A stretch of DNA of 64,000 bases from Actinopolymorpha singaporensis. GTDB lineage: Bacteria > Actinomycetota > Actinomycetes > Propionibacteriales > Actinopolymorphaceae. The DNA lies in the NCBI RefSeq assembly GCF_900104745.1, contig NZ_LT629732.1, positions 4,203,981-4,267,980 on the forward strand, in the 5' to 3' direction. Both the position numbers and the translations under genes were made by a program. The number at the start of each line of letters is the position of its first letter. Position 1 is the stretch's first letter. Positions 13,047-35,430 of this stretch are shown here, piece by piece. The notes below the pieces were generated by a model, which had not been told where the DNA came from, searched no databases, and was given only the letters and a program-made list of their open reading frames with translations.

Positions 13047-13216
13047 GAGATTCTCGAAGCTTTTCCGTACTACCGGATGTAACACCGGCGGCCAGTTGCC
13101 GGCCGGCCGGGTCGAGTCGGCTGCCGCGGGGCGCAGTTTGACGGAAATGGGTGATCGGCAAGACCGGACACTGCCCGGACCAGATGGTTCGACGGCAATC
13201 ATGAGGAGCGGTGTAC

Positions 13217-14887: not shown

Positions 14888-14928
14888 TGCCCCTACACAC
14901 GAGCTGGTGATGCGGAGGTGAGGCGCGG

Positions 14929-15918: not shown

Positions 15919-16856
15919 CGACATCGGGTTTCACTCCCGCCGGCGCTCCGGACCAGGCGAAGAACGTCGAGGTCGATCCCGAGGAGACGGCCAAGGACGC
16001 CTCCGCCGAACGACCCGAGGCGTGGTACTCGGTCATCTGGAGCAGCAAGAAGGCCCGCGTCGGTGTCATCACGGTCGGGATCTTCATCCTGATCGCGGTC
16101 TTCGCCCCGTGGATCGCACCGCACGACCCGACCGACTCCTCGTTCGTACCGCTGGCCGGCCCGAGCGGGTCGAACTGGCTCGGCACCACCACCAACGGCC
16201 AGGACGTCGCCTCGCAGCTCGTGTACGGCACCCGGGTCTCGCTGATCGTAGGACTCTTCGGAGGCCTGCTGGCCACGGTGATCGCCCTGGTCGTCGGCAT
16301 GATCTCGGGGTACGCCGAGGGAACGTGGCTCGACGACGTGCTGACCTTCGTCACCAACGTCGCTCTCGTCATCCCGGTGCTGCCGCTGATCATCACCCTC
16401 GTCGCGTACTCGTCGACGCGCGGGGTGACCCTGATCATCTTCGTCATCGCGATCACGTCGTGGGCCGGCGCGGCCCGGGCCAAACGGGCGCAGATCATCA
16501 CCCTGCGAAACCGGGACTTCGTCACTGCCGCGAAGTTCTCCGGTGAGGGGACCTTGCGGATCGTCTTCCGCGAGATCATGCCGAACATGACGTCGCTCGT
16601 CGCGGCGAGCTTCGTCGGCGCGGCGACCGGCGCCATCGGAGCCGAAGCGGGACTGGCGGTTCTCGGCCTCGGAGACAACAACCAGGTGTCGTGGGGGACG
16701 ATGCTCTACCAGAGCAACGCCCAGGGCGCGATCGCGCAGGGCTTGTTCATCTGGGTCTTCGCGCCCGGCCTGCTGCTGGCGATCCTCATCACCGCCATGT
16801 GTTTCGTCAACTTCGGCGTCGACCTGCTCAGCAACCCCCACCTGAGGGAGGACTGA
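15915..16856 (+). CDS. ABC transporter permease, DppC type
   Basis: A 313-residue membrane protein with a soluble N-terminus (about 40 residues) and six helices; the order IFAPWIAPHDPTD then WLGTTTNGQDVASQLVYGTRVSL is the DppC/OppC hallmark (key words PHDPTD and GQDV). The coupling loop is RNRDFVTAAKFSGEGTLRIV. It overlaps the first permease by four bases and ends one base before the ATPase gene, so the set is translated together. Confidence 0.92.
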   Translation: MTTSGFTPAGAPDQAKNVEVDPEETAKDASAERPEAWYSVIWSSKKARVGVITVGIFILIAVFAPWIAPHDPTDSSFVPLAGPSGSNWLGTTTNGQDVASQLVYGTRVSLIVGLFGGLLATVIALVVGMISGYAEGTWLDDVLTFVTNVALVIPVLPLIITLVAYSSTRGVTLIIFVIAITSWAGAARAKRAQIITLRNRDFVTAAKFSGEGTLRIVFREIMPNMTSLVAASFVGAATGAIGAEAGLAVLGLGDNNQVSWGTMLYQSNAQGAIAQGLFIWVFAPGLLLAILITAMCFVNFGVDLLSNPHLRED

Positions 16857-16857
16857 C

Positions 16858-18735: not shown

Positions 18736-18795
18736 CCCGTTCATGCGTGCAATTCATCCAAGCGTGGCAGCGCGTGGCAGCAAGGAGCAACTGAC

Positions 18796-20637: not shown

Positions 20638-20638
20638 C

Positions 20639-23014
20639 ATGACGGCAGTGGAGAGCGTCCGGCTCAGCCGCCGCAGGTTGCTGCTGAACGGCAAACCCGA
20701 GCTGGTGTTCGCCGGTGAGGTGCACTACTTCCGGCTGCACCGTCGTGACTGGGCCGACCGCCTGGACCGCCTGACGGAGGCAGGCTGCACGGCGGTGGCG
20801 AGCTACATGCCATGGCTGGTGCACGAACGCCCGGACGGTGCGATCGACCTGCGTGGGGACACCAGCGGATACCGTGACCTGGTTGGCTTCCTGGACCTCG
20901 CGGCCGAGCGCGGTCTGCTCGTGATCGCCCGTCCCGGCCCGTTCGTGATGGCCGAGCTGAAGAACGAGGGCATTCCGTACCGCGTCTACCGAGAGCACCC
21001 GGAGATCCTCCCGGTCGGCTGGGACGGCAGGCCCGGCACCACCAGGACGGTCGACTACCTCGCGCCGGGCTTCCTCACCGAGGTCGACCGATGGTACGCC
21101 GAGATCATGCCGGTGCTCGCCGAGCGCCAGGTCGGTCGTGGCGGCCCGGTCGCAGCGGTCCAGCTGGACAACGAGATCGGGATGCTGTCCTGGGTGAGCA
21201 ACACCCCGGAGCTCACCGACCAGACGTTGACGGACTTCGCCGGCTGGTCGACGAAGCGCTGGGGCAGCGATGGGGTCCGTACGCGCTACGGGTTCGACCC
21301 GGACGACGTACCGGCCTGGCGGGACGGTGTGCGCTCGCCGGCGCCCGGTTCACTCGCGTTGCACCACGACCTGTCGGAGTATCACCGCGACCGTTACGAC
21401 CGCTACGTCACCCACCTGCGGGACGGTGCGGAGTCGCACGGCGTCACCGCCGTTCCGTTCCTGATCAACATCCACGGCACCGGCGGCGGGCGTGGCCGCA
21501 CGTACCCGATCGGGATCAGCCAGCTCTACCCCTCCTACCGTGGCAAGCCGCGGTTGACGTCCGGATCGGACCACTACCTCGGCGACCTGACCGTGGAGAA
21601 CGTCGCCGACCTCTACGTCATGAACGCCTTCATGTCGGCGGTGCACGACGTGGACCAGCCGCTGACCTCACTGGAGTTCGAGGCCGGGCTCGGCGACTAC
21701 GGGGAGGACCTCAGCCGGTTCGTTCCGCCGGAGGCGCTCGCCCTGAAGACCCGGCTGTGCGTCGCCCAGGCCAACCGACTGGTCAACTACTACCTCTTCG
21801 CCGGTGGCCACAACCCACCACTGGAGGAGGCCGTGGCCGACGGCAACGACCGGATCGCCTTCACCGGCGAGCGGCACGGGTTCACGGCGCCGATCGGGCC
21901 GGAGGGCGTGCCCAACGCGTCGTACCCCGTGCTGCGTGACACAGTGACCGCGGCGCGCGGAGCCGCTCACCTGCTCGCCGACATGGACGAGGAGTACGAC
22001 GACCTGGCACTGGCGTTCGTACCCGATCACTACCTCACCGAGTACTGCCACCCCGGCGACGACGCCCGCCGGGAGGTGGTCGCCGAGCTGGAGCAGTTCC
22101 GCGGGATGGGCTCGCGGGACGTCGTCGCCAGGGCGATGCTGCTGGGGGGATTCTCCTTCCCTGCGGTCGACGTGCAAGCCGACCTTGACACCAATCCCGC
22201 CACGGGCCGCGCGATCGTGCTGGCGAGTGCGTCGACCCTGGCCGCCTCCGTCCAGCAACGCCTCGCGGACCTCGTGCACTCCGGCGGGCGCCTGCTGATG
22301 GCCGGAGTGCTGCCGACCCGCGACACCGACGGCTCCGCCTGCACGATCCTGGCGGACGCGCTCGAGGTGTCCGGGGGCGAGATCGTCATCGGGAACGAAC
22401 GCGTGTTTCCCTCCGTCCGGGCCGTGGGCTGGACCACGGCACAGGCGGAGGTCCGGGTCGGCGTCATGCAGCACCTGGCGCCACGGGGAGATGCCGAGGT
22501 GTTCGCTCGGGACGTCGCGAGCGGCAACCCGGTCGCGGTGGAGGTGCGCCCGGGTCGTGGGCACGCGTTGGTGCTGGCCTGCGACTACATCTGCGACCTG
22601 GGCTTCTGGACCGCGCTTCTGGCACGCCTCGGAGTCCGGCCGCGCCACACCCACGACTCCACGAGTCCGGGCATCGTGGTGACGTCCACCGCGGACGACC
22701 GGGGCCAGCGGCTGCTCCACCTGATCAACGTCGGACCGGTGGACCAGGCGATCGTCGTACATGACGGAGCGGGTCCGCTGTTCGACGGTGCGCGGGTTCA
22801 CCTTCCGGCTCGTGCCGGGCGGATGCTCCCGTTGAACGTACGCACCGGCGACGGCGTCCTGGCCTGGTCCACCTGCGAACTCGCCGGGGTCCGCGACGGA
22901 ACCCTGCTGGTCCGGCGTACCGGCGTCGGCGACGCGGTCCGCTTCCACGGCAGGGATCCCCACACCTGGCCGGACGCTCCGGAGGCGGCGGGCAAGGTTG
23001 TCGTGGTGGCTTGA
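20639..23014 (+). CDS. GH35-family beta-galactosidase
   Basis: A 791-residue cytosolic protein. The barrel begins with LLLNGKPELVFAGEVHYFR, then LLVIARPGPFVMAEL; the acid/base Glu179 sits in VQLDNEIGML and the nucleophile is expected in SLEFEAG (344-350). C-terminal beta domains follow. It hydrolyses beta-galactosides such as galacto-oligosaccharides or galactosylated xyloglucan pieces. The ATG lies one base after the GH39 stop codon, so the two enzymes are translated together and may share one imported branched substrate. Confidence 0.88.
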   Translation: MTAVESVRLSRRRLLLNGKPELVFAGEVHYFRLHRRDWADRLDRLTEAGCTAVASYMPWLVHERPDGAIDLRGDTSGYRDLVGFLDLAAERGLLVIARPGPFVMAELKNEGIPYRVYREHPEILPVGWDGRPGTTRTVDYLAPGFLTEVDRWYAEIMPVLAERQVGRGGPVAAVQLDNEIGMLSWVSNTPELTDQTLTDFAGWSTKRWGSDGVRTRYGFDPDDVPAWRDGVRSPAPGSLALHHDLSEYHRDRYDRYVTHLRDGAESHGVTAVPFLINIHGTGGGRGRTYPIGISQLYPSYRGKPRLTSGSDHYLGDLTVENVADLYVMNAFMSAVHDVDQPLTSLEFEAGLGDYGEDLSRFVPPEALALKTRLCVAQANRLVNYYLFAGGHNPPLEEAVADGNDRIAFTGERHGFTAPIGPEGVPNASYPVLRDTVTAARGAAHLLADMDEEYDDLALAFVPDHYLTEYCHPGDDARREVVAELEQFRGMGSRDVVARAMLLGGFSFPAVDVQADLDTNPATGRAIVLASASTLAASVQQRLADLVHSGGRLLMAGVLPTRDTDGSACTILADALEVSGGEIVIGNERVFPSVRAVGWTTAQAEVRVGVMQHLAPRGDAEVFARDVASGNPVAVEVRPGRGHALVLACDYICDLGFWTALLARLGVRPRHTHDSTSPGIVVTSTADDRGQRLLHLINVGPVDQAIVVHDGAGPLFDGARVHLPARAGRMLPLNVRTGDGVLAWSTCELAGVRDGTLLVRRTGVGDAVRFHGRDPHTWPDAPEAAGKVVVVA

Positions 23015-23030: not shown

Positions 23031-23591
23031 GTGATCATCGTCGAGGAGTACGACCCCGCCTGGCCCGAGCGCTTCCAGGCGCTGCGAGACGAGTACGAAG
23101 CGGCGATGGCGGCGGCCGGCGTTCCGGTCGTCGCCATCGAGCACGTCGGCAGCACGTCTGTGCCGGGACTCGCGGCCAAACCGGTCATCGACTGCGACAT
23201 CATCGTCCGCGAGGCTCACGTCGCGGCGGCGAGCGAAGTCCTGGTGTCGCTGGGGTTCGTGCCGCTGGGGGAGCTGGGGATCCCGCAGCGATGGGCGTTC
23301 AGGGAGCCCACGAGGCTGTCCGGCACCAACACGTACGTGATCGTGGACGGCTGCCTGTCACTGCGCAACCACCTGGCCCTGCGCGAGTTGCTCCGGTCGG
23401 ATGCGGCGTTGCGGGAGGAGTACTCCGCGGTCAAGCGGCAGGCCGGCGCACGTGCCGCCGACATCGACGAGTACGGCCGGCTGAAGACCGGCATGGTGCA
23501 GAAGATCCTCGCGGCTGCGGGGCTGACGGACGCCGAGCGGGCTTCCATCGCCGGCAACCAGGTGCCGTCCCACGCCGACCTACCCCGCTAG
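23031..23591 (+). CDS. GrpB (UPF0157) family nucleotidyltransferase-fold protein
   Basis: A 186-residue protein with the GrpB pattern: YDPAWPERFQALRDE, HVGSTSVPGLAAKPVIDCDI (the nucleotidyltransferase-like core with GST and two Asp residues) and LRDYLR-like LRNHLALRELLRSD. Members are related to nucleotidyltransferases and some act as dephospho-CoA-kinase-linked domains; the role here is unknown. The start is uncertain: GTG 23031 gives a normal N-terminus, an upstream codon at 22998 overlaps GH35. It converges with the leftward oxidoreductase gene. Confidence 0.8.
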   Translation: MIIVEEYDPAWPERFQALRDEYEAAMAAAGVPVVAIEHVGSTSVPGLAAKPVIDCDIIVREAHVAAASEVLVSLGFVPLGELGIPQRWAFREPTRLSGTNTYVIVDGCLSLRNHLALRELLRSDAALREEYSAVKRQAGARAADIDEYGRLKTGMVQKILAAAGLTDAERASIAGNQVPSHADLPR

Positions 23592-24613
23592 GCCCCCAGC
23601 GGTACGGAGCGGGAACCGTTCGCGGCCGAGTCGTACGCGGCGAGTGCCACCTCCAGAGCGCGCAGCCCGTCGGTCCCGGTGGCACACGGGTCCAGATGAC
23701 GCCCGGCGACCACCGAGGAGACGAACGCCTCGACCATCGCCGCGTCCGGGTCCTCGCCGAAACCGACGAGGCGAAGCCCGTCTCCGGCCGTGGCGCTGAC
23801 CAGTTGGAGCGACTCGGAGATGTCGTCGAGGTCGGCGCCGCCGTCGGTCCCGACCAGGTGGAGGAAGAAGTCGTAGTCCCACGGGTTGTTCGCCGGCACG
23901 GACCAGCTCGGGTCGATGTTCGCCACCGCGCCGCCGTGGAACTCCAGGGACACCAGCGCGCAGTCCTCCACGGCCAGGTCGTGCAGCAGCCGCCCCGTCA
24001 CGGCGTTCACCCGCCGGACCTCCTGCCCGGTGAGGTGGCGCAGCACGTCGGTGAGGTGCACCGAGTGGTCGATCAGGGCGCCGCCACCGGACAGCTCCGG
24101 AGTGGTGATCCACGGCGGGTAACGCGGCGGCAGCGGTGGCACTCCACGGTTGCCTGCCCGTGCGCCGATCACCTGACCGAATGCGCCCTGCGCCAGCGCT
24201 GCCCGCAGCGTCCGTACCTGCGGGAGGAACCGGCACACGAACGCGACGTGGAACTGGATCCCGGCATTCTCGGTCGCGGTCACCATCGCCCGGGCGTCCT
24301 CGACCGTGGTCGCGACCGGCTTCTCGCACAGCACATGTGTGCCGGCGTCGGCGGCGAGCTCCACATGGCGGCGGTGCTCGCTCGTCATCCCGCAGATGAT
24401 CACCGCCCGCACGTCGTCCGACCCGACCAGGCCCGCCAGGTCGTCGGTGTACGGCACGCCGAAGTCGTCCGCGACCGAGTGCCCGAGCGCCGGGTCGGAG
24501 TCGTACACGCCGACCAGCCGGGCGTTCGGCGAGGAGGTGACGGCGCGGGCGTAGGACCACGCGTGCTGCCGATGGGCGCACCCGACGAGGGCGATGCCCA
24601 GCCTGTCGTTCAT
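23588..24613 (-). CDS. Gfo/Idh/MocA-family sugar oxidoreductase (second of a pair)
   Basis: A 341-residue NAD(P)-dependent oxidoreductase: ALVGCAHRQHAWSYAR at the Rossmann start, HVLCEKPVATTVEDA (the family's conserved EKP Lys) and VPPLPPRYPPWITTPELSGGGALIDHSVHLTDVLR with the His-containing catalytic region (GGALIDHSVH). It oxidises or reduces sugars or inositol-like rings. ATG 24613 overlaps the preceding gene's stop by four bases and GGAGG precedes it. It is the last gene of the sugar ABC operon. Confidence 0.88.
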   Translation of the reverse strand: MNDRLGIALVGCAHRQHAWSYARAVTSSPNARLVGVYDSDPALGHSVADDFGVPYTDDLAGLVGSDDVRAVIICGMTSEHRRHVELAADAGTHVLCEKPVATTVEDARAMVTATENAGIQFHVAFVCRFLPQVRTLRAALAQGAFGQVIGARAGNRGVPPLPPRYPPWITTPELSGGGALIDHSVHLTDVLRHLTGQEVRRVNAVTGRLLHDLAVEDCALVSLEFHGGAVANIDPSWSVPANNPWDYDFFLHLVGTDGGADLDDISESLQLVSATAGDGLRLVGFGEDPDAAMVEAFVSSVVAGRHLDPCATGTDGLRALEVALAAYDSAANGSRSVPLGA

Positions 24614-25611
24614 GCGACCTCCCACGTCGTCAGGTCGACGGGTTCTCCGGTGTCAAGCGAGTGTTGCGCGGCCAGTGCCGTCCGCGTGGACTGGAAAGCC
24701 GCCTCGACGGGCACCGGCGAGGGGCCGCCGGCGCGGACGGCGTGCACGAACGCGGTCACCTCGCGGGCGAACCCGCGCTCGCCGAGTGGATCGAGCAGGG
24801 TCCGGCCGGTCTGCCTGGAATACATCGCGCCGCCGTTGATCGAGTCGTAGTCCCAGGCGAGTCGGCCGAGCGTTCCGGCGAGCTCGACCGCGACCTTGAA
24901 GCCGCGCTCGGCCGGGTGCGCCCAGCTGACCTCGATCTGGCCCATCGCGCCGTTCGCGTAGGCCAGGGTGGCCAGTGCGTACGTCGCCGGACCGGCGGGA
25001 CTGTCGGCGCCGATCGCGTACACCCTGGTCGGCGCGCTGCCGTTCACCCAGGACAGGTAGTCGAAGCTGTGCACGGCCAGGTCGAGCAGCGGGCCGCCGG
25101 AGCGTCGCGGGTCGGTGAGCCAGCCACCCTCGCTCCAACCCGGCAGCGAGGTCGTCATCGAGTGGCACAACATCGCCAGCCGGCCGAGCCGGCCCTCGTC
25201 GACGAGTTCCTTGGCACGCTGGTGATCCGGCTCGAACCGGCTCACGTGCCCCACGCAGACGACGGCTTGCGTCGTGTGCGCGGCCGCGACGATGCGGCGG
25301 GCGTCCTCGAGCGTGCCCGCCAGGGGCTTCTCGCACAGCACGTGGGCGCCGGACTTGATCGCCGCCACCGCGAGCTCGGCGTGGGTGTCCGGGGGAGTGC
25401 AGACACTGATCACGTCCACGCCGGCGTCGAGCACGGCCTCCAGGCCGTCGAACGCGCGCGCACCCACGGTCGAGGCGAGAGCCTGTGCCTTCGTCTCCCG
25501 CGGATCCGCCACACCGACGATGGAGACCCCAGGCACCGTCGCGTACGCCCGGGCGTGCACACCCGCGATCAGACCCGCTCCGACGATGCCGACCCGCAAC
25601 GCGGTGGTCAT
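24610..25611 (-). CDS. Gfo/Idh/MocA-family sugar oxidoreductase (first of a pair)
   Basis: A 333-residue oxidoreductase with GIVGAGLIAGVHARAY at the cofactor site, HVLCEKPLAGTLEDA, and GGPLLDLAVHSFDYL as the catalytic His region. It shares fold and layout with the following gene but is clearly divergent, so the two probably act in sequence, for example oxidation then reduction at another carbon to epimerise a sugar. It lies 42 bases after the second permease. Confidence 0.88.
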   Translation of the reverse strand: MTTALRVGIVGAGLIAGVHARAYATVPGVSIVGVADPRETKAQALASTVGARAFDGLEAVLDAGVDVISVCTPPDTHAELAVAAIKSGAHVLCEKPLAGTLEDARRIVAAAHTTQAVVCVGHVSRFEPDHQRAKELVDEGRLGRLAMLCHSMTTSLPGWSEGGWLTDPRRSGGPLLDLAVHSFDYLSWVNGSAPTRVYAIGADSPAGPATYALATLAYANGAMGQIEVSWAHPAERGFKVAVELAGTLGRLAWDYDSINGGAMYSRQTGRTLLDPLGERGFAREVTAFVHAVRAGGPSPVPVEAAFQSTRTALAAQHSLDTGEPVDLTTWEVA

Positions 25612-25653: not shown

Positions 25654-26640
25654 TCATCCCTTGAGGCCGCTGAGGGTGATGCCCTTGATGAACTTCCGCT
25701 GGAAGACCACGAAGATCGCGATCATCGGCAGCGTGGCGATCACCGACCCGGCGAACAGGAGGTTCCAGGAGGTCTTGTTCTTCACCACGAACAACGCCAG
25801 GCCAAGCGGAGCCGTGTAGTGGTCCGGGCTGGAGATGATGATCAGCGGCCACAGGAAGTCCTCCCAGGACGCCTGGAAGGTGAAGATCGCGGTGGCGGCC
25901 AGCGCCGGCATGCACAGCGGAAGCACCACCGACCAGAACACCTTGAACTCATTGGCACCGTCGATCCTCGCCGCGTCCAGGAGCTCGTCCGGAATCGACA
26001 GCATGTACTGCCGGAGCAGGAAGATGCCGAACGCGCTGACCGTTCCCGGGACGATCAGCCCCCAGTAGGAGTCGAGCCATCCGTGACCGCCGTTGCCGAG
26101 GATGTCGTTGCCGCCGAACAGCGGGATGTGCTTGACGATGATGTAGTTGGGGATGAGGGTGACCTGCCCCGGGACCATCATGGTGGCCAGGAAGACCATG
26201 AAGATGCCGTTGCGGCCGGGAAACCTCCGCTTGGCGAAGACGTAGGCGGCGAGCGCGTTGAAGAACGTCTGCAGCACGGTGACGGACGTGGCGACGAAGA
26301 CGCTGTTGGCGAACCACTTCCAGTCGCCGGTGCCCTGTCCGTGCTGGGCCGCGCTGAGGTGGCCGAGGTTCAGGAACTGCTGGTAGCCCGCGATCGTGGG
26401 ATCGTCGGGGATCCACTGCGGCGGGGTGGAGAAGATCTGCCCCATGGTCTGGAAGGACGCGCTCACCATCCAGGCGAACGGCGCCACGAAGACGATGGCG
26501 CCGGCCACCACGACGACGTAGACCAGCCAGTGACCGACGCTCCACCTCCCGGGGCGTGCACGGCCCGGGACCGACCGGGCGCCGTCGCCGCCCGCGCCGC
26601 GGTCGGTGGCGCGTTCGGTCACCTGGTCGAGCGCGGTCAT
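25654..26640 (-). CDS. Carbohydrate ABC transporter permease (MalG type)
   Basis: A 328-residue membrane protein with a disordered N-terminus of about 35 residues and six helices. The MalG-type EAA loop is DELLDAARIDGANEFKVFW, and MVPGQVTLIPNYIIV and the tail QRKFIKGITLSGLKG are characteristic. The ATG overlaps the stop of the first permease (ATGA). It forms the membrane channel together with that protein. Confidence 0.92.
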   Translation of the reverse strand: MTALDQVTERATDRGAGGDGARSVPGRARPGRWSVGHWLVYVVVVAGAIVFVAPFAWMVSASFQTMGQIFSTPPQWIPDDPTIAGYQQFLNLGHLSAAQHGQGTGDWKWFANSVFVATSVTVLQTFFNALAAYVFAKRRFPGRNGIFMVFLATMMVPGQVTLIPNYIIVKHIPLFGGNDILGNGGHGWLDSYWGLIVPGTVSAFGIFLLRQYMLSIPDELLDAARIDGANEFKVFWSVVLPLCMPALAATAIFTFQASWEDFLWPLIIISSPDHYTAPLGLALFVVKNKTSWNLLFAGSVIATLPMIAIFVVFQRKFIKGITLSGLKG

Positions 26641-27572
26641 GCGTCCGCCTTCCGGTAGAGCCGAAGCTGGACGAGCGTGACGACGAACAACAGCGCGAAC
26701 AGCCCGAACGCGAGAGTGCTCGCGTACCCCATGTCGTAGAACTCGAACGCCGCGCGGTAGATGAAGTAGACCATCGTGGTGGTGCGCTCGACCGGCCCTC
26801 CGCTGGTCATGATGAAGATCTGGGTGAAGATCTGGAACGAGCCGATGATTCCCATCACCAGCAGGAAGAGCGTCGTCGGCCGCAGCATGGGGATGGTGAT
26901 GTGACGCAGCCGGGCCAGCGCGCCGGCGCCGTCGATCCTGGCCGCCTCGTACAGCTCGTCCGGTATGGACTGCAGGCCCGCGAGGTAGACGACCATGGAG
27001 AAGCCCACCCCGCCCCAGACCGCCATCAGGATGACCGCCGGCATGGCGAGGTTCTGGTCCGACAGCCACAGCAGCGGCTTGTCGACGAGGTGTGCTCGCA
27101 CCAGGTAGTAGTTGAACAACCCGAAGTCGCCGTTGTAGAGCCACTTCCACAGGATCGCCACCACCACGAGCGGGGTCACCACGGGCAGGTAGTACAGCGT
27201 CCTGAACAGTCCTCTGAACCTGATCGGCTGGTTGAGCAGCAGCGCGACCCCGAGGCCGATCACCATCGTCAGCGGCACCGAACCACCGGTGAAGTAGAAC
27301 GTGTTGATGATCGAACGCCGGTAGTCGGCGTCACCGATCATCCGCTGGTAGTTGTCCAGGCCGACGAACGGCTTGTCCGGCTGCAGGATGTTCCACTCGT
27401 GGAAGGTGAGATAGAGGGCGAACACGAGCGCCGCGACCGTGAAGACGGAGAAGACGATGCCGCCGGGCAGCAGGAAGACGTACGCCGACCACTCCCGCCG
27501 CATGCGGAGGAGAGTACGTCGTACCGCACCGGCGTTCGCCCGGGGTGTCTCGCGAGCGACGGTCGCGGTCAT
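26637..27572 (-). CDS. Carbohydrate ABC transporter permease (MalF type)
   Basis: A 311-residue membrane protein with six helices. The N-terminal part (SAYVFLLPGGIVFSVFTV, LTFHEW) and the coupling loop DELYEAARIDGAGALARLRHITIPMLRPT (key words EAARIDGAG) are typical of carbohydrate-uptake transporters. It overlaps the binding-protein stop by four bases. No ATPase is encoded in the operon, so a shared MsiK-type ATPase elsewhere is probably used, as in streptomycetes. Confidence 0.92.
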   Translation of the reverse strand: MTATVARETPRANAGAVRRTLLRMRREWSAYVFLLPGGIVFSVFTVAALVFALYLTFHEWNILQPDKPFVGLDNYQRMIGDADYRRSIINTFYFTGGSVPLTMVIGLGVALLLNQPIRFRGLFRTLYYLPVVTPLVVVAILWKWLYNGDFGLFNYYLVRAHLVDKPLLWLSDQNLAMPAVILMAVWGGVGFSMVVYLAGLQSIPDELYEAARIDGAGALARLRHITIPMLRPTTLFLLVMGIIGSFQIFTQIFIMTSGGPVERTTTMVYFIYRAAFEFYDMGYASTLAFGLFALLFVVTLVQLRLYRKADA

Positions 27573-28885
27573 TGCTCGAGAATCGTCTCCGCGGCCTTCG
27601 CCGCGTTGTCCAGCGCCTGCTCGGCGGTCTGGTTGCCGTAGAACGCCTTGCCCAGCTCCTTGTTGAGCTCCTGCTCGACCCTCGGGAACTTCGGGGTCGG
27701 CACATTGCTGGAGACGCCGCACTTCATCAGCTCCGCGAACCCCTTCAGGATCGGCTTCTCCTTGACCAGGTCGGGGGAGTCCAGCAGTGGGGTCAGCGGC
27801 GGAAGCTCGGTGCCGTTCGCCGACTTGTAGGTCCACAGCGCGACGTTGTCCGGCGTGGAGAGGTACTCCATCCACAACCACGCGGCGTCGGCCTGCTTGG
27901 TGCCGGCCAGCATGACCAGCGAGTCCCCGGCGATGGTCGTCTTGCATCCGGCCGGGCCGTTCGGCAGGGGAGCGGCCGCCCACTTCCCGGCGATCTTCGG
28001 ATACTCCGAGTTCAGGGTGCCGGCGAACCACGAGCCGGCCATGTACATCCCGACCTGCCCTTGTGCGAAGGCCACTCGGCCGTCGTAGGAGTTGGAGTTC
28101 AGGTAGTCCGGGGGTGAGTACTTCGCCAGGCCGACGTAGAAGTTCGCGGCCTTCTTGGCCTGCGGGCTGTTGAACAGGATCTTGTTTCCCTTGCCCAGCA
28201 GGTCACCACCCGCCTGGTAGAGCCAGGGGTACCAGTAGTAGGCGGCCTCGGGGGCGAACACCTCGTAGCCGTACTGCTTCCTGGCGGGGACGGTGAGCTT
28301 CTGTGCGGCACTCAGGAACTCGTCCCATGTCTTCGGCGGGGCGGGTATTCCTGCCTGCTCGAACAGGTCGGTGCGGTAGAACAATCCGGTCGACTCGCCG
28401 TCGATCGGCAGCCCCCACAGGTGTTTGTCGTACGTCACGAAGTCCTTGAATGCCGGGACGTAGTCCGCCGCCTTCACCACCTTGCTGCGGCGGATGTAGT
28501 TGTCCAGGTTGACCAGCGACTGGCGCGAGGCGAAGTCGGAAGTGGCGCTGGCGTCGATGTAGGCGACGTCCGGCGGGTCGCCACCGGCGATCTGGGTGGT
28601 GAGCTTCTGGCTCGCGTTGTCCGCCGAGACGTTCTGGAAGCGGATGGTGATGTTCGGGTGCGACTTGTGGAATTCGGCGGCCAGCTTCTTCATCGTCGGA
28701 TCGCCACCGACCCAGGACGAGAAGGTGACCGACACCGGGGAGGTCGGGTCCTTGACCGGCCCCTTGCCGGCCCCGACGTCCGTCTTCGACGAGTCATCGG
28801 GCGAGGAGCAACTTGCCAGCGCGATGCCGGTGACGGCCAGTGCGGCGATGATCCGGGGCAACTTCGATACCGTGCGAACGCCCAT
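27569..28885 (-). CDS. Extracellular sugar-binding lipoprotein of an ABC transporter (family 1)
   Basis: A 438-residue lipoprotein: signal peptide with lipobox ALASC (Cys near residue 26), then an SBP_bac_1 body (VTFSSWVGGDPTMKKLAAEFHKSHPNI region, FYRTDLFEQAGIPAPPKTWDEFL, AGTKQADAAWLWMEYL). It captures a mono- or oligosaccharide outside the cell. ATG 28885 follows AGGGAG. It is the first gene of a five-gene leftward operon (binding protein, two permeases, two oxidoreductases) with two LacI-type palindromes in its upstream region. Confidence 0.92.
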   Translation of the reverse strand: MGVRTVSKLPRIIAALAVTGIALASCSSPDDSSKTDVGAGKGPVKDPTSPVSVTFSSWVGGDPTMKKLAAEFHKSHPNITIRFQNVSADNASQKLTTQIAGGDPPDVAYIDASATSDFASRQSLVNLDNYIRRSKVVKAADYVPAFKDFVTYDKHLWGLPIDGESTGLFYRTDLFEQAGIPAPPKTWDEFLSAAQKLTVPARKQYGYEVFAPEAAYYWYPWLYQAGGDLLGKGNKILFNSPQAKKAANFYVGLAKYSPPDYLNSNSYDGRVAFAQGQVGMYMAGSWFAGTLNSEYPKIAGKWAAAPLPNGPAGCKTTIAGDSLVMLAGTKQADAAWLWMEYLSTPDNVALWTYKSANGTELPPLTPLLDSPDLVKEKPILKGFAELMKCGVSSNVPTPKFPRVEQELNKELGKAFYGNQTAEQALDNAAKAAETILEQ

Positions 28886-28941
28886 CCAAGGGCTCCCTGC
28901 TCGAGTCCGATGAACAGTTGTGGCGAAGTGCAAGCCAGGTG

Positions 28942-28952
28942 CAAATCGTTTG
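28942..28952. promoter_or_regulatory. LacI-type operator, site 1 in the divergent region
   Basis: CAAATCGTTTG, with matching CAAA and TTTG arms around a central TCG, 57 bases before the ATG of the binding-protein gene. It resembles the second site 45 bases away. Confidence 0.5.
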
Positions 28953-28996
28953 GCTTCGGCAGAGCATCGTCCGGGACGAATTCCTTGTCAAGAGGA

Positions 28997-29008
28997 CAAA
29001 TCGATTTG
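28997..29008. promoter_or_regulatory. LacI-type operator, site 2 in the divergent region
   Basis: CAAATCGATTTG is a perfect 12-bp palindrome with a central CG, between the leftward sugar ABC operon and the rightward LacI gene (116 bases before its ATG). It could control both directions. Confidence 0.65.
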
Positions 29009-29123
29009 CGTTCTCCCCCGGAAAGCGCTATGAAATCCGTGGACAGGTGCGGGACGCCGCGTCGGCTCGGGTCGCCGAGCCAGGAGCGGGGACCACCTCG
29101 CACTCCACCCGGAAAGGGTACGC

Positions 29124-30158
29124 ATGCCCAAGCAGAAGGCGCCGGCCGCCGACACCGGCCGGCCCCGGGTGACCATCACCCAGGTCGCCGCACACGCCGG
29201 CGTCAGCCCCACCACCGTGTCGCACGTCCTGTCCGGCAAGCGCCTGGTGGCCGAGGAGACGCAGGCCACCGTGCACGAGGCGATCCGGACCCTCGGCTAT
29301 CGCCCCAACCACGTCGCGAGGTCACTGCGTACCCGTCGTTCGCAGATGATCGCGGTGGTGGTCCCGGACATCACCAACACTTTCTACAGCGTGCTCACCC
29401 GAGGGCTGGCCGACGTGGTCGACGCCGACGGGTACGGCACCTACGTGTGCAACACCGACGGCCTGCCCGACCGGGAGACGAAGTTCTTCGAGGACATCCT
29501 CGACCGGGGCGCCGACGGCATCGTGCTGGCTGCGGTCGACGAGGCGTCGGTGGGTGCGCTCGGGCCGGCGAACATGGGCGTGCCGGTGGTGTCCATCGGC
29601 GAGCGGCTGGACCACCCCGAGGTCGACGTCGTGACGGTGGACGACGAGGTCGGCGCGTACGCCGCGACCACCCACCTCCTCGGCCGGGGAGCCAGGCGGG
29701 TGGCGATGATCTCCGGCCCGTCGCAGACCGGCCGCAACCGGGTCGCGGGCTTTCGGAGGGCGCTGTCGCAGGCCAGGCGGCGGGCGAACCCCTCGCTGCT
29801 CGTCGCCGGTGACTGGACCCGCCAGGGTGGCCGCGACGCGATGCGGTCACTGCTCGCCCTTCCGGCACGCCGTCGGCCGGACGCGGTGTTCTGTGCCAAT
29901 GACCTCACCGCGATCGGGGCCATCGACGCGCTGCGCGAGGCCGGGTTGAACGTGCCCGACGACGTGGCGGTGGCGGGCTTCGACGACGTGGACGCCGCGA
30001 CGATCGTCCATCCCGCTCTCACCACGGTGGTCAACCCCGCCTACGAGATCGGCGCGACAGCGGGGCGCCTGCTGACCAGACGGCTCCGGGGCGAGCGGGA
30101 CCGGGATCGTACGACCGTGGTGCTGCCCTGCCCGCTGGTGGTCCGCGGATCCGCGTAG
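29124..30158 (+). CDS. LacI-family transcriptional regulator of the sugar ABC and xylanase genes
   Basis: A 344-residue LacI-type regulator: helix-turn-helix TITQVAAHAGVSPTTVSHVL (about residues 14-33, first residue of that block uncertain), hinge, and sugar-binding domain (IAVVVPDITNTFYSVLTRGL, FCANDLTAIGAIDAL, VAGFDDVDAATIVHPALTTV). GGAAAGG precedes the ATG. It sits between the sugar ABC operon, from which it diverges, and the xylanase/PhyH operon, with which it converges; similar palindromes precede both, so it probably regulates both. Confidence 0.92.
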   Translation: MPKQKAPAADTGRPRVTITQVAAHAGVSPTTVSHVLSGKRLVAEETQATVHEAIRTLGYRPNHVARSLRTRRSQMIAVVVPDITNTFYSVLTRGLADVVDADGYGTYVCNTDGLPDRETKFFEDILDRGADGIVLAAVDEASVGALGPANMGVPVVSIGERLDHPEVDVVTVDDEVGAYAATTHLLGRGARRVAMISGPSQTGRNRVAGFRRALSQARRRANPSLLVAGDWTRQGGRDAMRSLLALPARRRPDAVFCANDLTAIGAIDALREAGLNVPDDVAVAGFDDVDAATIVHPALTTVVNPAYEIGATAGRLLTRRLRGERDRDRTTVVLPCPLVVRGSA

Positions 30159-30173
30159 GCGGACTCACCAGAG

Positions 30174-32276
30174 TCACGCGTCGCCGCGAAGCTCCACGAT
30201 GCCGTACACCCCCACCCGGGGGATCGAGACCTCGACCGTCATGCCGTCCCGGCGAACGGGGAGGTCGAACGAGGGAATTCCGGGAGCGTGGTAGACCACC
30301 CGGCCGCTCGTCGCCACCGGAAGACGGACCCGCAACGAGACGTCGGTGTGGTGGCGTACGGCGTCGATCTCGGCGTCGTAGGCGTAGTTGACCAAGTGCA
30401 CCGCGGCGCTGCCGCCGCTCAGCCTGGCCACGTTGACCGCGACGTCGGCAGCACCCGTCGAGACGGTGACCTGTGCGGCGCCGGCGACGGCGGGGACGTC
30501 CTCCGCGACGGCCCGCCGAACGCCCGGTCGGCGGAGCAGCCGGTCGCGCATGTCAGCCGGGAGGTTCTCCGCGAACCGGTCGGTGACGACGACGACCACG
30601 CCGGCGTTCACGCAGGTCTCCAGTACCTCCACCTGCCGTGGCGTGAGCACGTGGCAGTCCGGAAGCACAATCCGCTCGTACCGCGTCAACGTCTTCGCGT
30701 CCACGCGATCGGGAGCGACATCGCCATCGGCGAACACCGCCACGTCGAACGGCACCGCCGCCGCCGACAGACCTTCGGTGACGACCCGGTAGGGAACCCG
30801 CACCGAGTCGTTTCGTGCGTTGGTGATGTTGTCGCTCACGTCCGCCCGGCGAATCAGGTCGCGGGTGCTGGCCACGCCGAAGACGACGCACACCTCGTGC
30901 CAGGAGTCGTGGGAGTACAGGTGTTCGTGGTCGGCGAGGAAGTTCTGCACCTCGACCGCGAGGTCGTGCGGAGGGTGGAACGAGTCCTCGATCGTCGCGC
31001 CCATCCACGCGCCGTAGGGCACCGACATGTTCGCGCCGAACGCCGCACCTTCGTACAACGACAGCCGGAACAGGTCGTAGCCGCGTCCCTTCCGCAGCTG
31101 TTCCACCAGCTCCGGAACGACTCCGCCGTAGGGGTTCTCGACCACGACGACGTCCTTGCCGGCCGCGAATCCCGCGACGTAGCGGTACCACTGCGGCTGC
31201 CGGTAGGTCGTGTTGCGCATCTCGGTGACGACGACGTCCACGTCGTCGACCAGCGCGAGATAGGACGGGTCGCAGTTGAAGAAGTTGCCCGAGATCAGCA
31301 CGTTCCGGCCCTGCTCGCGTGCGTACTCCCTCGCGTACTCGGCGAGCTCGCCGAAGTAGCGTTTGATCGTCCGGCACTGGAAGCGGTAGTAGTCGCCGAA
31401 CAGCGGCGCGGACTCGCGGTCGGTCTTGAAGTCGTGGCCTCGCGCCAGCAGCCAGTCGCCGTAGTGGAACGTGTCCAGGTCGACGCCGTCCAGGGCCGGG
31501 TCGCGCAGATCGGGCGGAAGCTCCTTCAGGTACGTACGAAACAGCCGCATGCAGTCCCGGCAGAAGCACGCGCCGTACTGGAACGCGCCCATCGGCAGCT
31601 CGGCCTCGTCCAGCTGCACACCGTCCACGCCGGCGTCGATCTGGATCCGGATGACCGCCTTGAGGTACTCCCGCCACACGGGGTTGTTGCGGTCCATGTA
31701 GTAGCACTGGTGGTCCCGGTCGGGGCACTCCACCCACTTCGCGTGACAGGGTTGCTGGTGGATGTCGCGGGCGACGCACTCGTCGATCAGGTCCGTCACC
31801 GACTCACCGTCGCTGTTGACCAGCCCGTCGGGGAAGTAGTGCTCGACCGGTTTCCACAACCGGGGATAGCGGTTCGCGGAGAACTCGCGCAGACCGAGCC
31901 AGTCCCGCCTGCCCACGCCGCGGAGCTCGTTCAGGGCGAGGATGGTGGTCTCGTCCTCGTCCAGCTCGACCGGAAACTCCCAGCCCTGGGCCTCGAAGAC
32001 GATGCCGAAGACCGCGATGCCGTGGCGGTGGCACTCGGCGATGAACTCACTGTCGTTGACGAAACCGTAGAACCGCGCGCGGGGATCGACCGGGCCGAAG
32101 GCTTCCTGTTCGAGATAGGGCAGGCCGAGCGACCCACCGCCCATCGCCGCCCACACGAGCATGTCCGCGCGGTAGTCCACGAGGTCGTCGACCATCCGCA
32201 GTCGCCGGGGTGGCAGGCTCGGGTGGTAGCAGTGCTGTCCGGGAAACCAGCCGTCGAAGTAGACGCCCCGCCTCAT
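30174..32276 (-). CDS. Large TIM-barrel glycosidase-like protein of unassigned family
   Basis: A 700-residue cytosolic protein, last gene of the GH10 operon. An N-terminal alpha/beta barrel (about 1-430) has the strand DGVQLDEAELP (219-228) with Asp223, Glu224 and Glu226 as candidate catalytic residues, followed by a metal-like cluster ACFCRDC (Cys237, 239, 242). Residues about 480-600 resemble the flavodoxin-like trimerisation domain of GH42 beta-galactosidases (PFDVAVFADGD, YERIVLPDCHVLTPRQVEVL), and a small beta sandwich closes the chain. This architecture occurs in several poorly characterised glycosidase groups. I cannot assign a family or substrate. ATG 32276 overlaps the PhyH stop codon by four bases. 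Confidence 0.7.
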   Translation of the reverse strand: MRRGVYFDGWFPGQHCYHPSLPPRRLRMVDDLVDYRADMLVWAAMGGGSLGLPYLEQEAFGPVDPRARFYGFVNDSEFIAECHRHGIAVFGIVFEAQGWEFPVELDEDETTILALNELRGVGRRDWLGLREFSANRYPRLWKPVEHYFPDGLVNSDGESVTDLIDECVARDIHQQPCHAKWVECPDRDHQCYYMDRNNPVWREYLKAVIRIQIDAGVDGVQLDEAELPMGAFQYGACFCRDCMRLFRTYLKELPPDLRDPALDGVDLDTFHYGDWLLARGHDFKTDRESAPLFGDYYRFQCRTIKRYFGELAEYAREYAREQGRNVLISGNFFNCDPSYLALVDDVDVVVTEMRNTTYRQPQWYRYVAGFAAGKDVVVVENPYGGVVPELVEQLRKGRGYDLFRLSLYEGAAFGANMSVPYGAWMGATIEDSFHPPHDLAVEVQNFLADHEHLYSHDSWHEVCVVFGVASTRDLIRRADVSDNITNARNDSVRVPYRVVTEGLSAAAVPFDVAVFADGDVAPDRVDAKTLTRYERIVLPDCHVLTPRQVEVLETCVNAGVVVVVTDRFAENLPADMRDRLLRRPGVRRAVAEDVPAVAGAAQVTVSTGAADVAVNVARLSGGSAAVHLVNYAYDAEIDAVRHHTDVSLRVRLPVATSGRVVYHAPGIPSFDLPVRRDGMTVEVSIPRVGVYGIVELRGDA

Positions 32277-33022
32277 CGGCTCGGCGTCCTCTCCGGCTGG
32301 TAGACGTTGCCGGCCGTGTCCCGGCCCCGGGCGAGCCAGATCTTCCACCCGGCGTTCTGTTCGACCGGCAGCACGCGGACGGACGCGGGGAAGTACCGCA
32401 TGGTGTAGCCGGTACGCCGTACGTCGCTGGTGTTCGGCTTCGCGCCGTGGATGATGCGGCCGTCGTGCAGGGAGAACTCACCGCGGTCGAGGACGAAGTC
32501 GACCGCCCGGCTCTCGTCGACTCCCTGGATCTCGGCATGGAACGTCTGGGTGGTGCGGTCGGTCGGGGCGTAGTTGTCGGAGAATCCGTTCACATGCGTG
32601 CCGGGAATCACCCGCATGCACCCGTTGGAGGTGTCGCTCGGCTTCTCCAGCGCCAGCCACACCGTGACGATGCGGTCGTACGCGCTGAGCCGGCCCTTCC
32701 AGTAGGCGCTGTCCTCGTGCCAGGGCGTGGCGCGTCCGACCTTCGGGTCCTTGGAGATGAAGTGGCTGGTCCACAGGGCGATGTCCGGCCCGACCAGCGG
32801 TTCGACGGTGTCGAGCACCTCGTCGGAGAGCAGGAAGTCCAGCAGTTCGGGGTCGCGGAAGTGTGGGGTGTCCAGCTCGTCGGAGAGCTTGTCACCCTTG
32901 TCCCGAAGGTGCCGGTTGAAGATCGCCTCCAGGCGCGCGAGCTTGTCCTCGGAGAACAACTGGGTGTGGGGGAGGAGATATCCGTTGGCGCGGAAGAATC
33001 TCACGTCCTCGTCGGTCAGCAT
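32273..33022 (-). CDS. PhyH-type Fe(II)/2-oxoglutarate dioxygenase
   Basis: A 249-residue protein of the phytanoyl-CoA dioxygenase family. The iron-binding facial triad is visible as His102 and Asp104 in WHEDSAYW and His192 in IIHGAKPN; the oxoglutarate-binding Arg is probably in RRTGYTMRYFP. Members hydroxylate lipids, natural products or small metabolites. Here it is embedded, with short overlaps (7 and 4 bases), between a Gfo/Idh oxidoreductase and a glycosidase-like gene behind a GH10 xylanase. Its substrate may therefore be a sugar or aglycone from plant material; this is inference. Confidence 0.88.
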   Translation of the reverse strand: MLTDEDVRFFRANGYLLPHTQLFSEDKLARLEAIFNRHLRDKGDKLSDELDTPHFRDPELLDFLLSDEVLDTVEPLVGPDIALWTSHFISKDPKVGRATPWHEDSAYWKGRLSAYDRIVTVWLALEKPSDTSNGCMRVIPGTHVNGFSDNYAPTDRTTQTFHAEIQGVDESRAVDFVLDRGEFSLHDGRIIHGAKPNTSDVRRTGYTMRYFPASVRVLPVEQNAGWKIWLARGRDTAGNVYQPERTPSR

Positions 33023-34110
33023 CGTTCCGCGCCTTTCTGTGTGTGGTGGGCGAGCCGGATGATCTCGGTGAACAGCTCGAGGTCCTGCACGAAGTCCTCG
33101 GGAGTCGTCCTGACCGGAACGCCGGCGGTGACCGACGCGTGGAACGCCTCGAGTTCGTGGGTGTAGGGGTCCTTCAGGTGTGGCCGGACCACCGAACGGG
33201 TGTAGGCGTCCCCGTTGCTCTCCTCGAACATCAAGACGGTGGGCAAGTGCCGGACGTAGGGCGTGTCGTACTGGATCCGCATCGACGTGGTCTCGCCGTA
33301 GACCTCGATGTGTGCGTCGAACCGAAGCTGTTCGTCCACGCCGGTCTCGTAGACCGCCAGGTGGTCGTCGTACTCGAACAGCGCGACCACGAACTGCCCG
33401 TCGCGCCACTGGCGGGCGGCGGCGACTCCGCGGGGCCGCCCGAGCAGCTCACGCATCGCCGACAGGTCGTGGCTGCCAAGCCCGCACAGCAGGCGGTAGG
33501 TGCCGCCGAGCACGTCGGGAACATCTCCGAGCGCCTCCCGCACCAACCGGCGTCCGCGCTCGTGCCGGTCCGCCAGGGCTGCCGCCGGAAGGTCGTGCGG
33601 ACGGAGCACGTGCGCGGTCTGGTCGATCAGCAACTGGTTGCGGCCGATGACGTCATGGACGCGTACGTAGTTGACCCGTCCCAGCTTCGTCAACTGCTCC
33701 TTGGCAGCGGTGAACGCGGGGGCGAATCGCCGCATGTAGCCGACCATGACCACACATCCCGAAGCATCCCGGGCGGCGACGATCCGCTCCGCCTCCCGGG
33801 GGCTGAGACACATCGGCTTTTCCACCAGCACGTGCAGGGACTGCCCCAGCGCCGCGGTCACGGCGTCGCAGTGGTACTCGTCGTTGTTGAGCACGAGCAC
33901 ACAGTCCAGGGTCTGGTCGCGTGCCAGCTTCTGGAAGTCGTCGTAGCGCCGTTCCACGCCGTACCGCCTGCCCACGACGTCGAGCAGGGTGGGGGAGAGG
34001 TCGCACACGGCGGCCAGCTCGTAGAGCTCTGGCAACGATTCCAGGATGGGCAGATGAATGACCTGAGCGACCTCGCCGAGGCCGATTACACCGACTCGAA
34101 GCGGGCTCAT
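33016..34110 (-). CDS. Gfo/Idh/MocA-family oxidoreductase in the xylanase operon
   Basis: A 364-residue oxidoreductase: GVIGLGEVAQVIHLPIL at the cofactor site, HVLVEKPMCLSPREAERIV with the conserved Lys, and LLCGLGSHDLSAMRELLG with the conserved His of the catalytic region. It has a somewhat long insertion around residues 165-200. The ATG lies 10 bases after the GH10 stop and the GAGGTG ribosome site overlaps that stop codon. The substrate is likely a sugar or sugar lactone. Confidence 0.88.
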   Translation of the reverse strand: MSPLRVGVIGLGEVAQVIHLPILESLPELYELAAVCDLSPTLLDVVGRRYGVERRYDDFQKLARDQTLDCVLVLNNDEYHCDAVTAALGQSLHVLVEKPMCLSPREAERIVAARDASGCVVMVGYMRRFAPAFTAAKEQLTKLGRVNYVRVHDVIGRNQLLIDQTAHVLRPHDLPAAALADRHERGRRLVREALGDVPDVLGGTYRLLCGLGSHDLSAMRELLGRPRGVAAARQWRDGQFVVALFEYDDHLAVYETGVDEQLRFDAHIEVYGETTSMRIQYDTPYVRHLPTVLMFEESNGDAYTRSVVRPHLKDPYTHELEAFHASVTAGVPVRTTPEDFVQDLELFTEIIRLAHHTQKGAERC

Positions 34111-34120
34111 GGACGCCACC

Positions 34121-35329
34121 TCACCGGTGGGTGCAGGTTCGCGGGGACTTCCAGGCCGGTCGCCTCCGGGGCGCACTGCCAAGGCTGCGGCGTTCGGCGT
34201 GGTAGGCGCGAACGGGCCGCAGGTCGGCGTCGAAGGGCAGCGGGCGCCGGTGCGTCCCGTCCTCGCGTGGGTAGTCCTCGTCCAGCCAGGTGTAGCGGTC
34301 GGACAAGCCGAAGTCGACGACGGCCACCACGTCCGCGCACTCGAGCGTCACGTCGAGGTAGCGGCGGTAGACGTCGGCGACCATCCGGTCGCGGGGCCCG
34401 GTCGCCGTGGGCAGCCCGTCGTCGAGGACGTCCAGCTCGGTGATCAGGATCCTCAGGCCGCGGTCGGCCAGCTCGGAGAGGAACCGGAGGTACTGCCGTG
34501 CGTGGAAGCGTTCGTGGAACCGGTCGGCCAGCAGGTGACCCTGGATCCCGAACGCGTGCACGGGAACCCCGGCACCGAGCAGGTCGTCGAGCACCCGGAG
34601 GGTGTTGCGCTGCTTGTCGGCCGGCTCGTCGCCCCACTGGTTGACGGTCTCGTAGCCGAAGTCGTTCATCATCAGGCACGCGTGCGAGTCGGTATCGTGC
34701 GCGACCCGGAACGCGTGTGCCACGTAGTCGGGGCCGATGGTCTGGAACCACGGGACGTCCTCCCGCAGCCCGCCGTGCCCCGTGTCCGTCCCGTTGACGA
34801 TCGCCTCGTTGACCACGCTCCAGATCGGCACGCGGTGGCGGTAACGCCGCATCACTGCGCGCATGGTGCCGTAGAGCAGCTCGCGGGCACGGTCCTCGGG
34901 GATGTTCCACAGGTCGTCCTCGCCCCAGCCGTCGCCGAACCCCTGGTCCCACACCAGGTGGGCACCCAGCACGAGTTGCCGGTTGCGTTCGGCGAACTCG
35001 ACGATCCGGTCGGCGTAGGTGAAGTCGAGCCCGGAGTCGGGAGTGGGCCGCAGCCGCCACCACAGCATGTCGTCCTCGGTCAGCAGGAGCGCGGCATGCC
35101 TGGCGTGCAGGGCGGCGTAGTCGGCGTCCTCCAGTTGCCACGTCGCCGCGGAGGATCCCAAGAGGAGTCCCTTCCTGGCCGCGGCTCGCCACAGGGGTGG
35201 TACGCGTGTCCCGGCGACCTCTGCCGCGTGTGCCGTTTCCGCCGTCCCCAGGCCGACGACACCGGCCGTGGCGGCGGCTCCGGCGCCGAGCAGGAAGGCC
35301 CGCCGGTGCAGGGATGTGCTGGTGCCCAT
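34121..35329 (-). CDS. Tat-exported GH10 endo-beta-1,4-xylanase-like hydrolase
   Basis: A 402-residue protein. The N-terminus LHRRAFLLGAGAAATAG with AHA near residue 35 is a twin-arginine signal peptide. The catalytic barrel shows AHLVW (121-127 region), acid/base Glu175 in WSVVNEAIV and nucleophile Glu298 in ITELDV, all standard for GH10. It should cut xylan or a related beta-1,4-glycan outside the cell. The last 25 residues are basic and unlike the family. GGAGG precedes ATG 35329. It leads a four-gene leftward operon; a LacI-type operator lies about 90 bases upstream. Confidence 0.9.
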   Translation of the reverse strand: MGTSTSLHRRAFLLGAGAAATAGVVGLGTAETAHAAEVAGTRVPPLWRAAARKGLLLGSSAATWQLEDADYAALHARHAALLLTEDDMLWWRLRPTPDSGLDFTYADRIVEFAERNRQLVLGAHLVWDQGFGDGWGEDDLWNIPEDRARELLYGTMRAVMRRYRHRVPIWSVVNEAIVNGTDTGHGGLREDVPWFQTIGPDYVAHAFRVAHDTDSHACLMMNDFGYETVNQWGDEPADKQRNTLRVLDDLLGAGVPVHAFGIQGHLLADRFHERFHARQYLRFLSELADRGLRILITELDVLDDGLPTATGPRDRMVADVYRRYLDVTLECADVVAVVDFGLSDRYTWLDEDYPREDGTHRRPLPFDADLRPVRAYHAERRSLGSAPRRRPAWKSPRTCTHR

Positions 35330-35414: not shown

Positions 35415-35430
35415 TGCAAAACGATTTACA
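35415..35430. promoter_or_regulatory. LacI-type operator upstream of the GH10 operon
   Basis: TGCAAAACGATTTACA, an imperfect 16-bp inverted repeat (6 of 8 positions symmetrical) with a central CG and the same AAA/TTT arms as the sites at 28.95 kb. It lies 86 bases before the GH10 start codon. Confidence 0.55.

Follow-up and report, generated by a model that had tools for sequence, protein, structure and literature searches.

A conserved, operator-linked bacterial gene set joins an Fe(II)/2-oxoglutarate dioxygenase and its Gfo/Idh partner to a probable glycosidase of an unnamed family

Our analysis of a 64-kb stretch of the Actinopolymorpha singaporensis genome (the window, in which all coordinates are positions) reveals that four adjoining genes, encoding a GH10-family glycosidase, a Gfo/Idh/MocA oxidoreductase (Gfo4), a PhyH-type Fe(II)/2-oxoglutarate (2OG) dioxygenase, and a 700-aa barrel protein (the barrel), form part of a bacterial sugar-catabolism kit that is widely conserved and under joint control. 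Regulon membership, synteny, co-occurrence, a shared operator, fold, conserved metal ligands, and replacement of PhyH by another protein were each established computationally. The four genes may supply the central enzymes of a catabolic regulon under LacI control, in which a carbonyl made by the oxygenase would be resolved by Gfo4 and a glycoside hydrolysed by the barrel, a reading to which we give an even chance. The four genes are as follows:

34121..35329, minus strand: GH10-family glycosidase, predicted to be exported by twin-arginine translocation (Tat) (Pfam PF00331 Glyco_hydro_10, E 3.4e-51; alignments to xylanases; 14 relatives)
33016..34110, minus strand: Gfo/Idh/MocA oxidoreductase Gfo4, putative oxygenase partner (Pfam GFO_IDH_MocA, E 9.1e-22; motifs; all 31 PhyH loci)
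32273..33022, minus strand: PhyH-type Fe(II)/2OG dioxygenase (Pfam PhyH, E 7.4e-30; invariant ligands; fold match)
30174..32276, minus strand: 700-aa barrel of a probable, unnamed GH42/alpha-agarase-like glycosidase family (model, fold match, conservation; no Pfam or NCBIfam match)

The junctions read in an initial annotation of this DNA are all reproduced: in the order GH10, Gfo4, PhyH, barrel, a 10-bp gap is followed by a 7-bp and a 4-bp overlap.

In an initial search covering 148 relatives, 6 genomes (source genome counted) proved to carry the barrel, and in the close relatives among these, PhyH and Gfo/Idh genes adjoin it. A scan of named genomes, for which the best 80 of 137 barrel loci were used and which is thus biased to closer relatives, recovered barrel loci in Actinobacteria, Thermomicrobiales/Chloroflexi, Thermoleophilia, and Firmicutes, in two groups defined by identity to the window's barrel: clade 1 (>55%) and clade 2 (43–52%). 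Among 65 barrel loci of at least 12 kb, PhyH is present in 31, every one of which also carries Gfo4, and GH10 is present in 14, every one of which carries both PhyH and Gfo4. A PhyH orthologue (E ≤ 1e-40) occurs in 9 of 395 genomes of the class, all 9 being among the 10 barrel genomes, and in 0 of the 385 genomes lacking the barrel (Fisher p 1.7e-17, indicative because the genomes are related and kinship is ignored). In an apparent exception, Paenibacillus psychroresistens (locus L064), PhyH lies just beyond the fetched locus. The initial annotation had made its grouping hinge on conserved synteny, and that synteny extends over several phyla.

The usual actinobacterial clade-1 order is ThuA, nucleoside hydrolase, levoglucosan-dehydrogenase-like Gfo/Idh, Gfo4, PhyH, IolE-like TIM barrel, barrel, and Zn-dehydrogenase, followed in typical loci by LacI, AraC, an ATP-binding cassette (ABC) importer, two further Gfo/Idh genes (Gfo_a and Gfo_b), and GH10. 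The window's exact order, GH10-Gfo4-PhyH-barrel, is found again in Microlunatus flavus and Desertihabitans. A search for plasmid homologues of the barrel found none.

Comparison of the window's intergenic regions identified a palindromic LacI-type operator, TGCAAAnCGnTTTGCA, which in clade-1 loci precedes GH10, the core operon Gfo4-PhyH-barrel, and the sugar importer. Three sites with at most one mismatch to the core, GCAAAWCGWTTTGC, are present in the window, versus 0.00 expected, and 51 sites with at most two mismatches are present in 23 clade-1 loci (the window's included), versus 0.3 expected. Specifically, 19 of the clade-1 sites are upstream of the gene for the substrate-binding protein (SBP), 11 are upstream of Gfo4 or the lead gene of its operon, and 7 are upstream of GH10. 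Beside the barrel, almost every actinobacterial clade-1 locus has a lacI orthologue, whose product is presumably the natural reader of the operator. The co-occurrence and operator data together rule out a chance neighbourhood of the four genes. A scan for simple promoters and terminators gave nothing above chance. The operators and remaining genes of the regulon in the window are as follows:

35415..35430, no strand assigned: LacI-type operator TGCAAAACGATTTACA, differing from the core by no more than one mismatch and lying ~90 bp upstream of GH10; conserved in relatives
28940..28955, no strand assigned: LacI-type operator TGCAAATCGTTTGGCT, at the SBP promoter; conserved in relatives
28995..29010, no strand assigned: LacI-type operator GACAAATCGATTTGCG, between SBP and lacI
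29124..30158, plus strand: LacI-family regulator of the regulon (Pfam LacI and Peripla_BP_3)
27569..28933, minus strand: sugar ABC importer, SBP (Pfam SBP_bac_1, E 3.8e-51; 26 of 65 loci)
26637..27572, minus strand, start approximate: sugar ABC importer, permease F (translation; order kept in relatives)
25654..26640, minus strand: sugar ABC importer, permease G (translation; clade-1 orthologues 57–78% identical)
24610..25611, minus strand: Gfo/Idh oxidoreductase Gfo_a, IolG-like (Pfam; importer-adjacent in 13 of 65 loci)
23588..24625, minus strand: Gfo/Idh oxidoreductase Gfo_b (Pfam; 14 of 65 loci)

Adjoining the regulon, positions 13211-23014 carry a dipeptide-type ABC transporter, GH39, and a GH35/exo-beta-glucosaminidase-like gene, and no operator site was found there.

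The PhyH sequences, 34 in number, have invariant H102-x-D104 and H192, bearing out the complete iron triad read earlier in the dioxygenase, and invariant R203, the likely 2OG-binding Arg. The predicted model (pLDDT 89.8) has ThoJ, SyrB2, SnoK, and EvdO2 as fold relatives. The HxD...H triad, the Arg, and the double-stranded beta-helix fold assign the PhyH product, from sequence and model, to the Fe(II)/2OG dioxygenases. A SyrB2-like non-heme iron halogenase (TIGR01762 match) was considered and rejected because the Asp ligand, D104, is kept and invariant; halogenases carry Ala or Gly at this position. Gfo4, in 39 sequences, conserves G7, G10, and G12 of the GxGxxA-type Rossmann motif, E97, K98, and P99 (containing the EKP lysine), and an HD motif, residues that by sequence place it among the Gfo/Idh/MocA oxidoreductases. 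Two PhyH copies per locus are seen in Phytoactinopolyspora halotolerans (L038) and Cohnella zeiphila (L070).

In clade-1 genomes outside Actinobacteria, the PhyH slot holds a 461-aa DUF455-related protein in which the ExxH pairs of ferritin-like di-iron proteins are conserved. Genome searches found PhyH in 8 of 8 actinobacterial versus 0 of 8 other clade-1 genomes (one actinobacterial match, in the genome of L034, is a 45-residue contig-edge fragment), and the DUF455-type protein, with two conserved ExxH motifs, in 0 of 8 versus 8 of 8. In the order of genome G511 (61 genomes), the di-iron protein occurs in 8 genomes, including 6 of the 7 with the barrel (p 3.4e-6). At the locus level, a DUF455-type protein stands at the PhyH position in L040:432-1814, L041, L044, L045, and L039, with the ferritin-like ExxH pairs in its second half. 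Cohnella and Paenibacillus have PhyH and Gfo4. Anaerobic Clostridia with clade-2 barrels have neither oxygenase and no Gfo4, as would be expected of an O2-dependent step. The strict pairing and the oxygenase replacement make the oxygenase and Gfo/Idh look like one coupled, O2-dependent step, and the simplest reading is that two unrelated metal enzymes can each perform this oxidation, partnered by Gfo4. In a more specific form, to which we give slightly less than an even chance, an O2-dependent oxygenase must modify an imported oligosaccharide before the founding member of a new GH family processes it, with the slot filled twice, by an Fe/2OG enzyme in Actinobacteria and Firmicutes and by a ferritin-like DUF455-type di-iron enzyme in Thermomicrobiales and relatives.

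The window's barrel has no Pfam or NCBIfam match, and a single-sequence PDB search with it gave no significant match. Pfam and NCBIfam searches of 26 members of the 76-member barrel alignment yielded PF08532 (GH42 trimerisation domain) in 1 of 26 and no Pfam match to the Glyco_hydro_42 catalytic domain in any of the 26, and plain GH42 membership was rejected on this Pfam result. The predicted model (pLDDT 94.4, pTM 0.94) best matches the fold of the alpha-agarase AGA of Catenovulum maritimum (PDB 9m0b; Foldseek E 5.7e-25, TM 0.61), in agreement with a profile search (E 5.8e-9); further fold matches are a GH42 alpha-L-arabinopyranosidase (5xb7; GH42 fold match E 4.7e-18), an alpha-L-fucosidase, and GH66. 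This comparison with known GH families, which the initial annotation had suggested, thus gives a resemblance to alpha-agarase, GH42, and GH66, and the fold together with the single PF08532 match supports the GH42-like trimerisation domain described there. The Cys cluster ACFCRDC, also described there, recurs across the 76 barrels, with C237 and C242 invariant and C239 nearly so. D223, E224, and E352 are invariant and E380 is present in 75 of 76, at the ends of beta4, beta6, and beta7; E224 (beta4) and E380 (beta7) are proposed, from conservation and model, as a GH-A-like catalytic pair. The barrel resembles GH42 beta-galactosidases and the alpha-L-arabinopyranosidase in its TIM barrel, Cys cluster after beta4, and trimerisation-like domain, but the GH42 NEYGG acid/base position aligns with the non-conserved Q233, and E224 is nine residues further upstream. 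It differs from AGA in having only 16% identity, a different gene context, and no evident signal peptide. Judged by its model, the 700-aa protein very probably belongs to an unnamed glycosidase family.

We infer the substrate class, the order of the cellular steps, the formation and reduction of a ketone, and the catalytic pair as follows. The target of the regulon would be one imported plant-type oligosaccharide or glycoside. Outside the cell, the Tat-exported GH10 would cut it, and the product would enter through the ABC importer. Inside, PhyH with O2 and 2OG would oxidise a sugar C-H adjacent to an O-methyl, amino, or hydroxyl substituent, leaving a carbonyl, which Gfo4 would reduce, or otherwise resolve, with NAD(P)H, by analogy with KanJ/KanK in the kanamycin pathway. 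Hydrolysis of the glycoside would fall to the barrel, with E224 probably as acid/base and E380 probably as nucleophile. In kanamycin biosynthesis, the sugar ketone that a 2OG non-heme iron dioxygenase makes is reduced by a dedicated NADPH-using reductase (PMC5533434). The likeness is a strict oxygenase-oxidoreductase pair; the difference is that KanJ/KanK make an antibiotic, whereas the present pair sits in a catabolic regulon with an importer and glycosidases, and KanJ is not among the PDB sequence matches of the window's PhyH at E 0.01.

Several points weigh against this mechanism. The fold matches of PhyH are broad hydroxylases (ThoJ, SyrB2, proline hydroxylase), so that a sugar substrate rests on context. 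The di-iron gene adjoins the barrel in several, not all, contigs of metagenome-assembled genomes, assemblies that contain gaps, and Gfo4 is found in only two loci (L040, L042) of the di-iron genomes. Clade-2 barrels occur in aerobes such as Mycetocola without any oxygenase, so hydrolysis itself needs no O2 step. Finally, the Rieske ferredoxin and amidohydrolase of some regulons could mean an aromatic part.

No decisive gene points to any one substrate. A gene for an IU nucleoside hydrolase lies close to the barrel in 35 of 65 loci, from several phyla, and a clostridial operon has the order barrel, GH106-like, IU nucleoside hydrolase, GH4, PfkB (L059, L065, L071, L074, L077, L085, L088); D-lyxose isomerase-like cupins lie beside clade-2 barrels (L053:16401-17075, L063:13967-14503, L054, L057), and MPI-like cupins accompany the clade-2 barrels of Mycetocola, Leifsonia, and Curtobacterium. 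Despite such neighbours, neither nucleosides nor mannose or lyxose were adopted; nor were the xylan reducing-end sequence, rhamnogalacturonan II methyl sugars, L-fucose (FucU-like), or saponins.

Simple O-demethylation, which we consider unlikely, is the best-surviving alternative: PhyH would hydroxylate a sugar O-methyl group (e.g. of 4-O-methylglucuronate, 2-O-methylxylose, or 2-O-methylfucose) to give formaldehyde and free sugar, Gfo4 would oxidise the freed hydroxyl, and the barrel would cleave the glycoside. The absence of the O2-dependent step in anaerobes, the FucU-like L-fucose mutarotase in some regulons, and the action of the barrel's fold neighbours on alpha-L-galacto-configured sugars are all consistent with it. 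However, no formaldehyde-handling gene was recognised in the regulon, an open-access literature search gave no dioxygenase demethylation of methylglucuronate, and a dedicated reductase would be unneeded, yet Gfo4 accompanies PhyH in all 31 loci. This strict pairing, unneeded by plain demethylation, suggests a carbonyl intermediate, and a carbonyl made by the oxygenase and handled by Gfo4 is, on our analysis, slightly preferred. Of the earlier proposal that PhyH oxidatively removes a methyl decoration and Gfo/Idh makes a redox adjustment, the sugar-catabolic setting stands and plain demethylation is not supported.

It is improbable that the target of PhyH is instead the non-sugar part, a terpenoid, steroid, or phenolic aglycone, of a saponin or similar plant glycoside, with GH10 freeing the whole oligosaccharide outside and the barrel trimming it. 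Genes for a Rieske ferredoxin, an Amidohydro_2 protein, and a FucU-like mutarotase are likewise preceded by the shared operator in some relatives; the first two favour an aglycone, as do the GH106-like, GH78, GH3, and GH35 genes close to the barrel in some other genomes and the existence of ginsenosidases from GH families including 10 and 42 (families 1, 2, 3, 10, 39, 42, 51, and 78 are reported; PMC10653915). On the other side, the ABC transporter belongs to a type that imports sugar oligosaccharides, the core comprises sugar enzymes (Gfo/Idh, xylose-isomerase-like, ThuA), and anaerobes retain the barrel without an oxygenase. Around the shared operator, the Rieske ferredoxin and Amidohydro_2 genes diverge, with a FucU-like gene alongside in some (L130:2166-3768, L131:1633-4562, L021, L024, L046).

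The initial annotation had called the GH10 protein a Tat-exported xylanase. The protein does carry a Tat motif, LHRRAFLLGAGAA, which relatives share, and PF00331 and the retained catalytic Glu pair (VVNE and ITELD) assign it by sequence to GH10; its specificity for xylan was not confirmed. In particular, where the best-matching solved xylanases have ENxMKW and GHTLVWHxQ, the window's GH10 has EDDMLW and GAHLVWDQG and relatives have EDDLLW and AHLxWDEG, changes common to 14 relatives where the alignments cover the motifs. The canonical xylose-subsite residues, which we take to be N44/K47 of ENxMKW and H80 and Q87 of GHTLVWHxQ in Cex numbering, are thus absent from the window and the aligned relatives. 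Because this GH10 subgroup appears to have lost them, a xylan-derived sugar as the source is not supported, and of the cleavage step proposed earlier only the barrel's very probable glycosidase activity stands. Plain xylan use, with GH10 as an ordinary endo-xylanase, the barrel as xylosidase or alpha-glucuronidase, and PhyH and Gfo4 handling methylglucuronate, draws on the GH10 membership and intact Glu pair but is a weak, very improbable reading given the changed motifs, the presence of GH10 in only 14 of 65 loci, and the failure to recognise GH67, GH115, or GH43 among the neighbours scanned.

Relatives' regulons resemble 3-keto-glycoside, levoglucosan, and ThuA pathways in having ThuA, a levoglucosan-dehydrogenase-like Gfo/Idh, an IolE-like TIM barrel, and a Zn-dehydrogenase; the window's locus differs in lacking ThuA and the TIM-barrel isomerase, the latter of which has no close orthologue in the source genome. 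We know of no such pathway that needs an O2-dependent oxygenase and, to our knowledge, oxygenases are hardly known in bacterial sugar breakdown. EvdO1, EvdO2, and HygX are 2OG oxygenases that act on oligosaccharides in biosynthetic orthoester formation (PMC8234114). They share the PhyH fold, EvdO2 being among the fold matches, but have ~25% identity to the window's PhyH and a biosynthetic role. A search of open-access texts gave no fitting paper on a PhyH/Gfo/GH cluster, which does not prove absence. Elsewhere in the window, at 57131-58105, an apparent TauD-like dioxygenase, read by eye, lies beside a Tat-exported, DyP-type-peroxidase-looking protein.

A conserved oxygenase-oxidoreductase pair, for which an unrelated di-iron protein can stand in and which one operator ties to an importer, a secreted GH10 enzyme, and a glycosidase family without a name, points to a glycoside that is common and needs oxygen for its breakdown. 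DUF455-type di-iron proteins would gain a testable substrate class, and the locus would show that GH10 members are not all xylanases.

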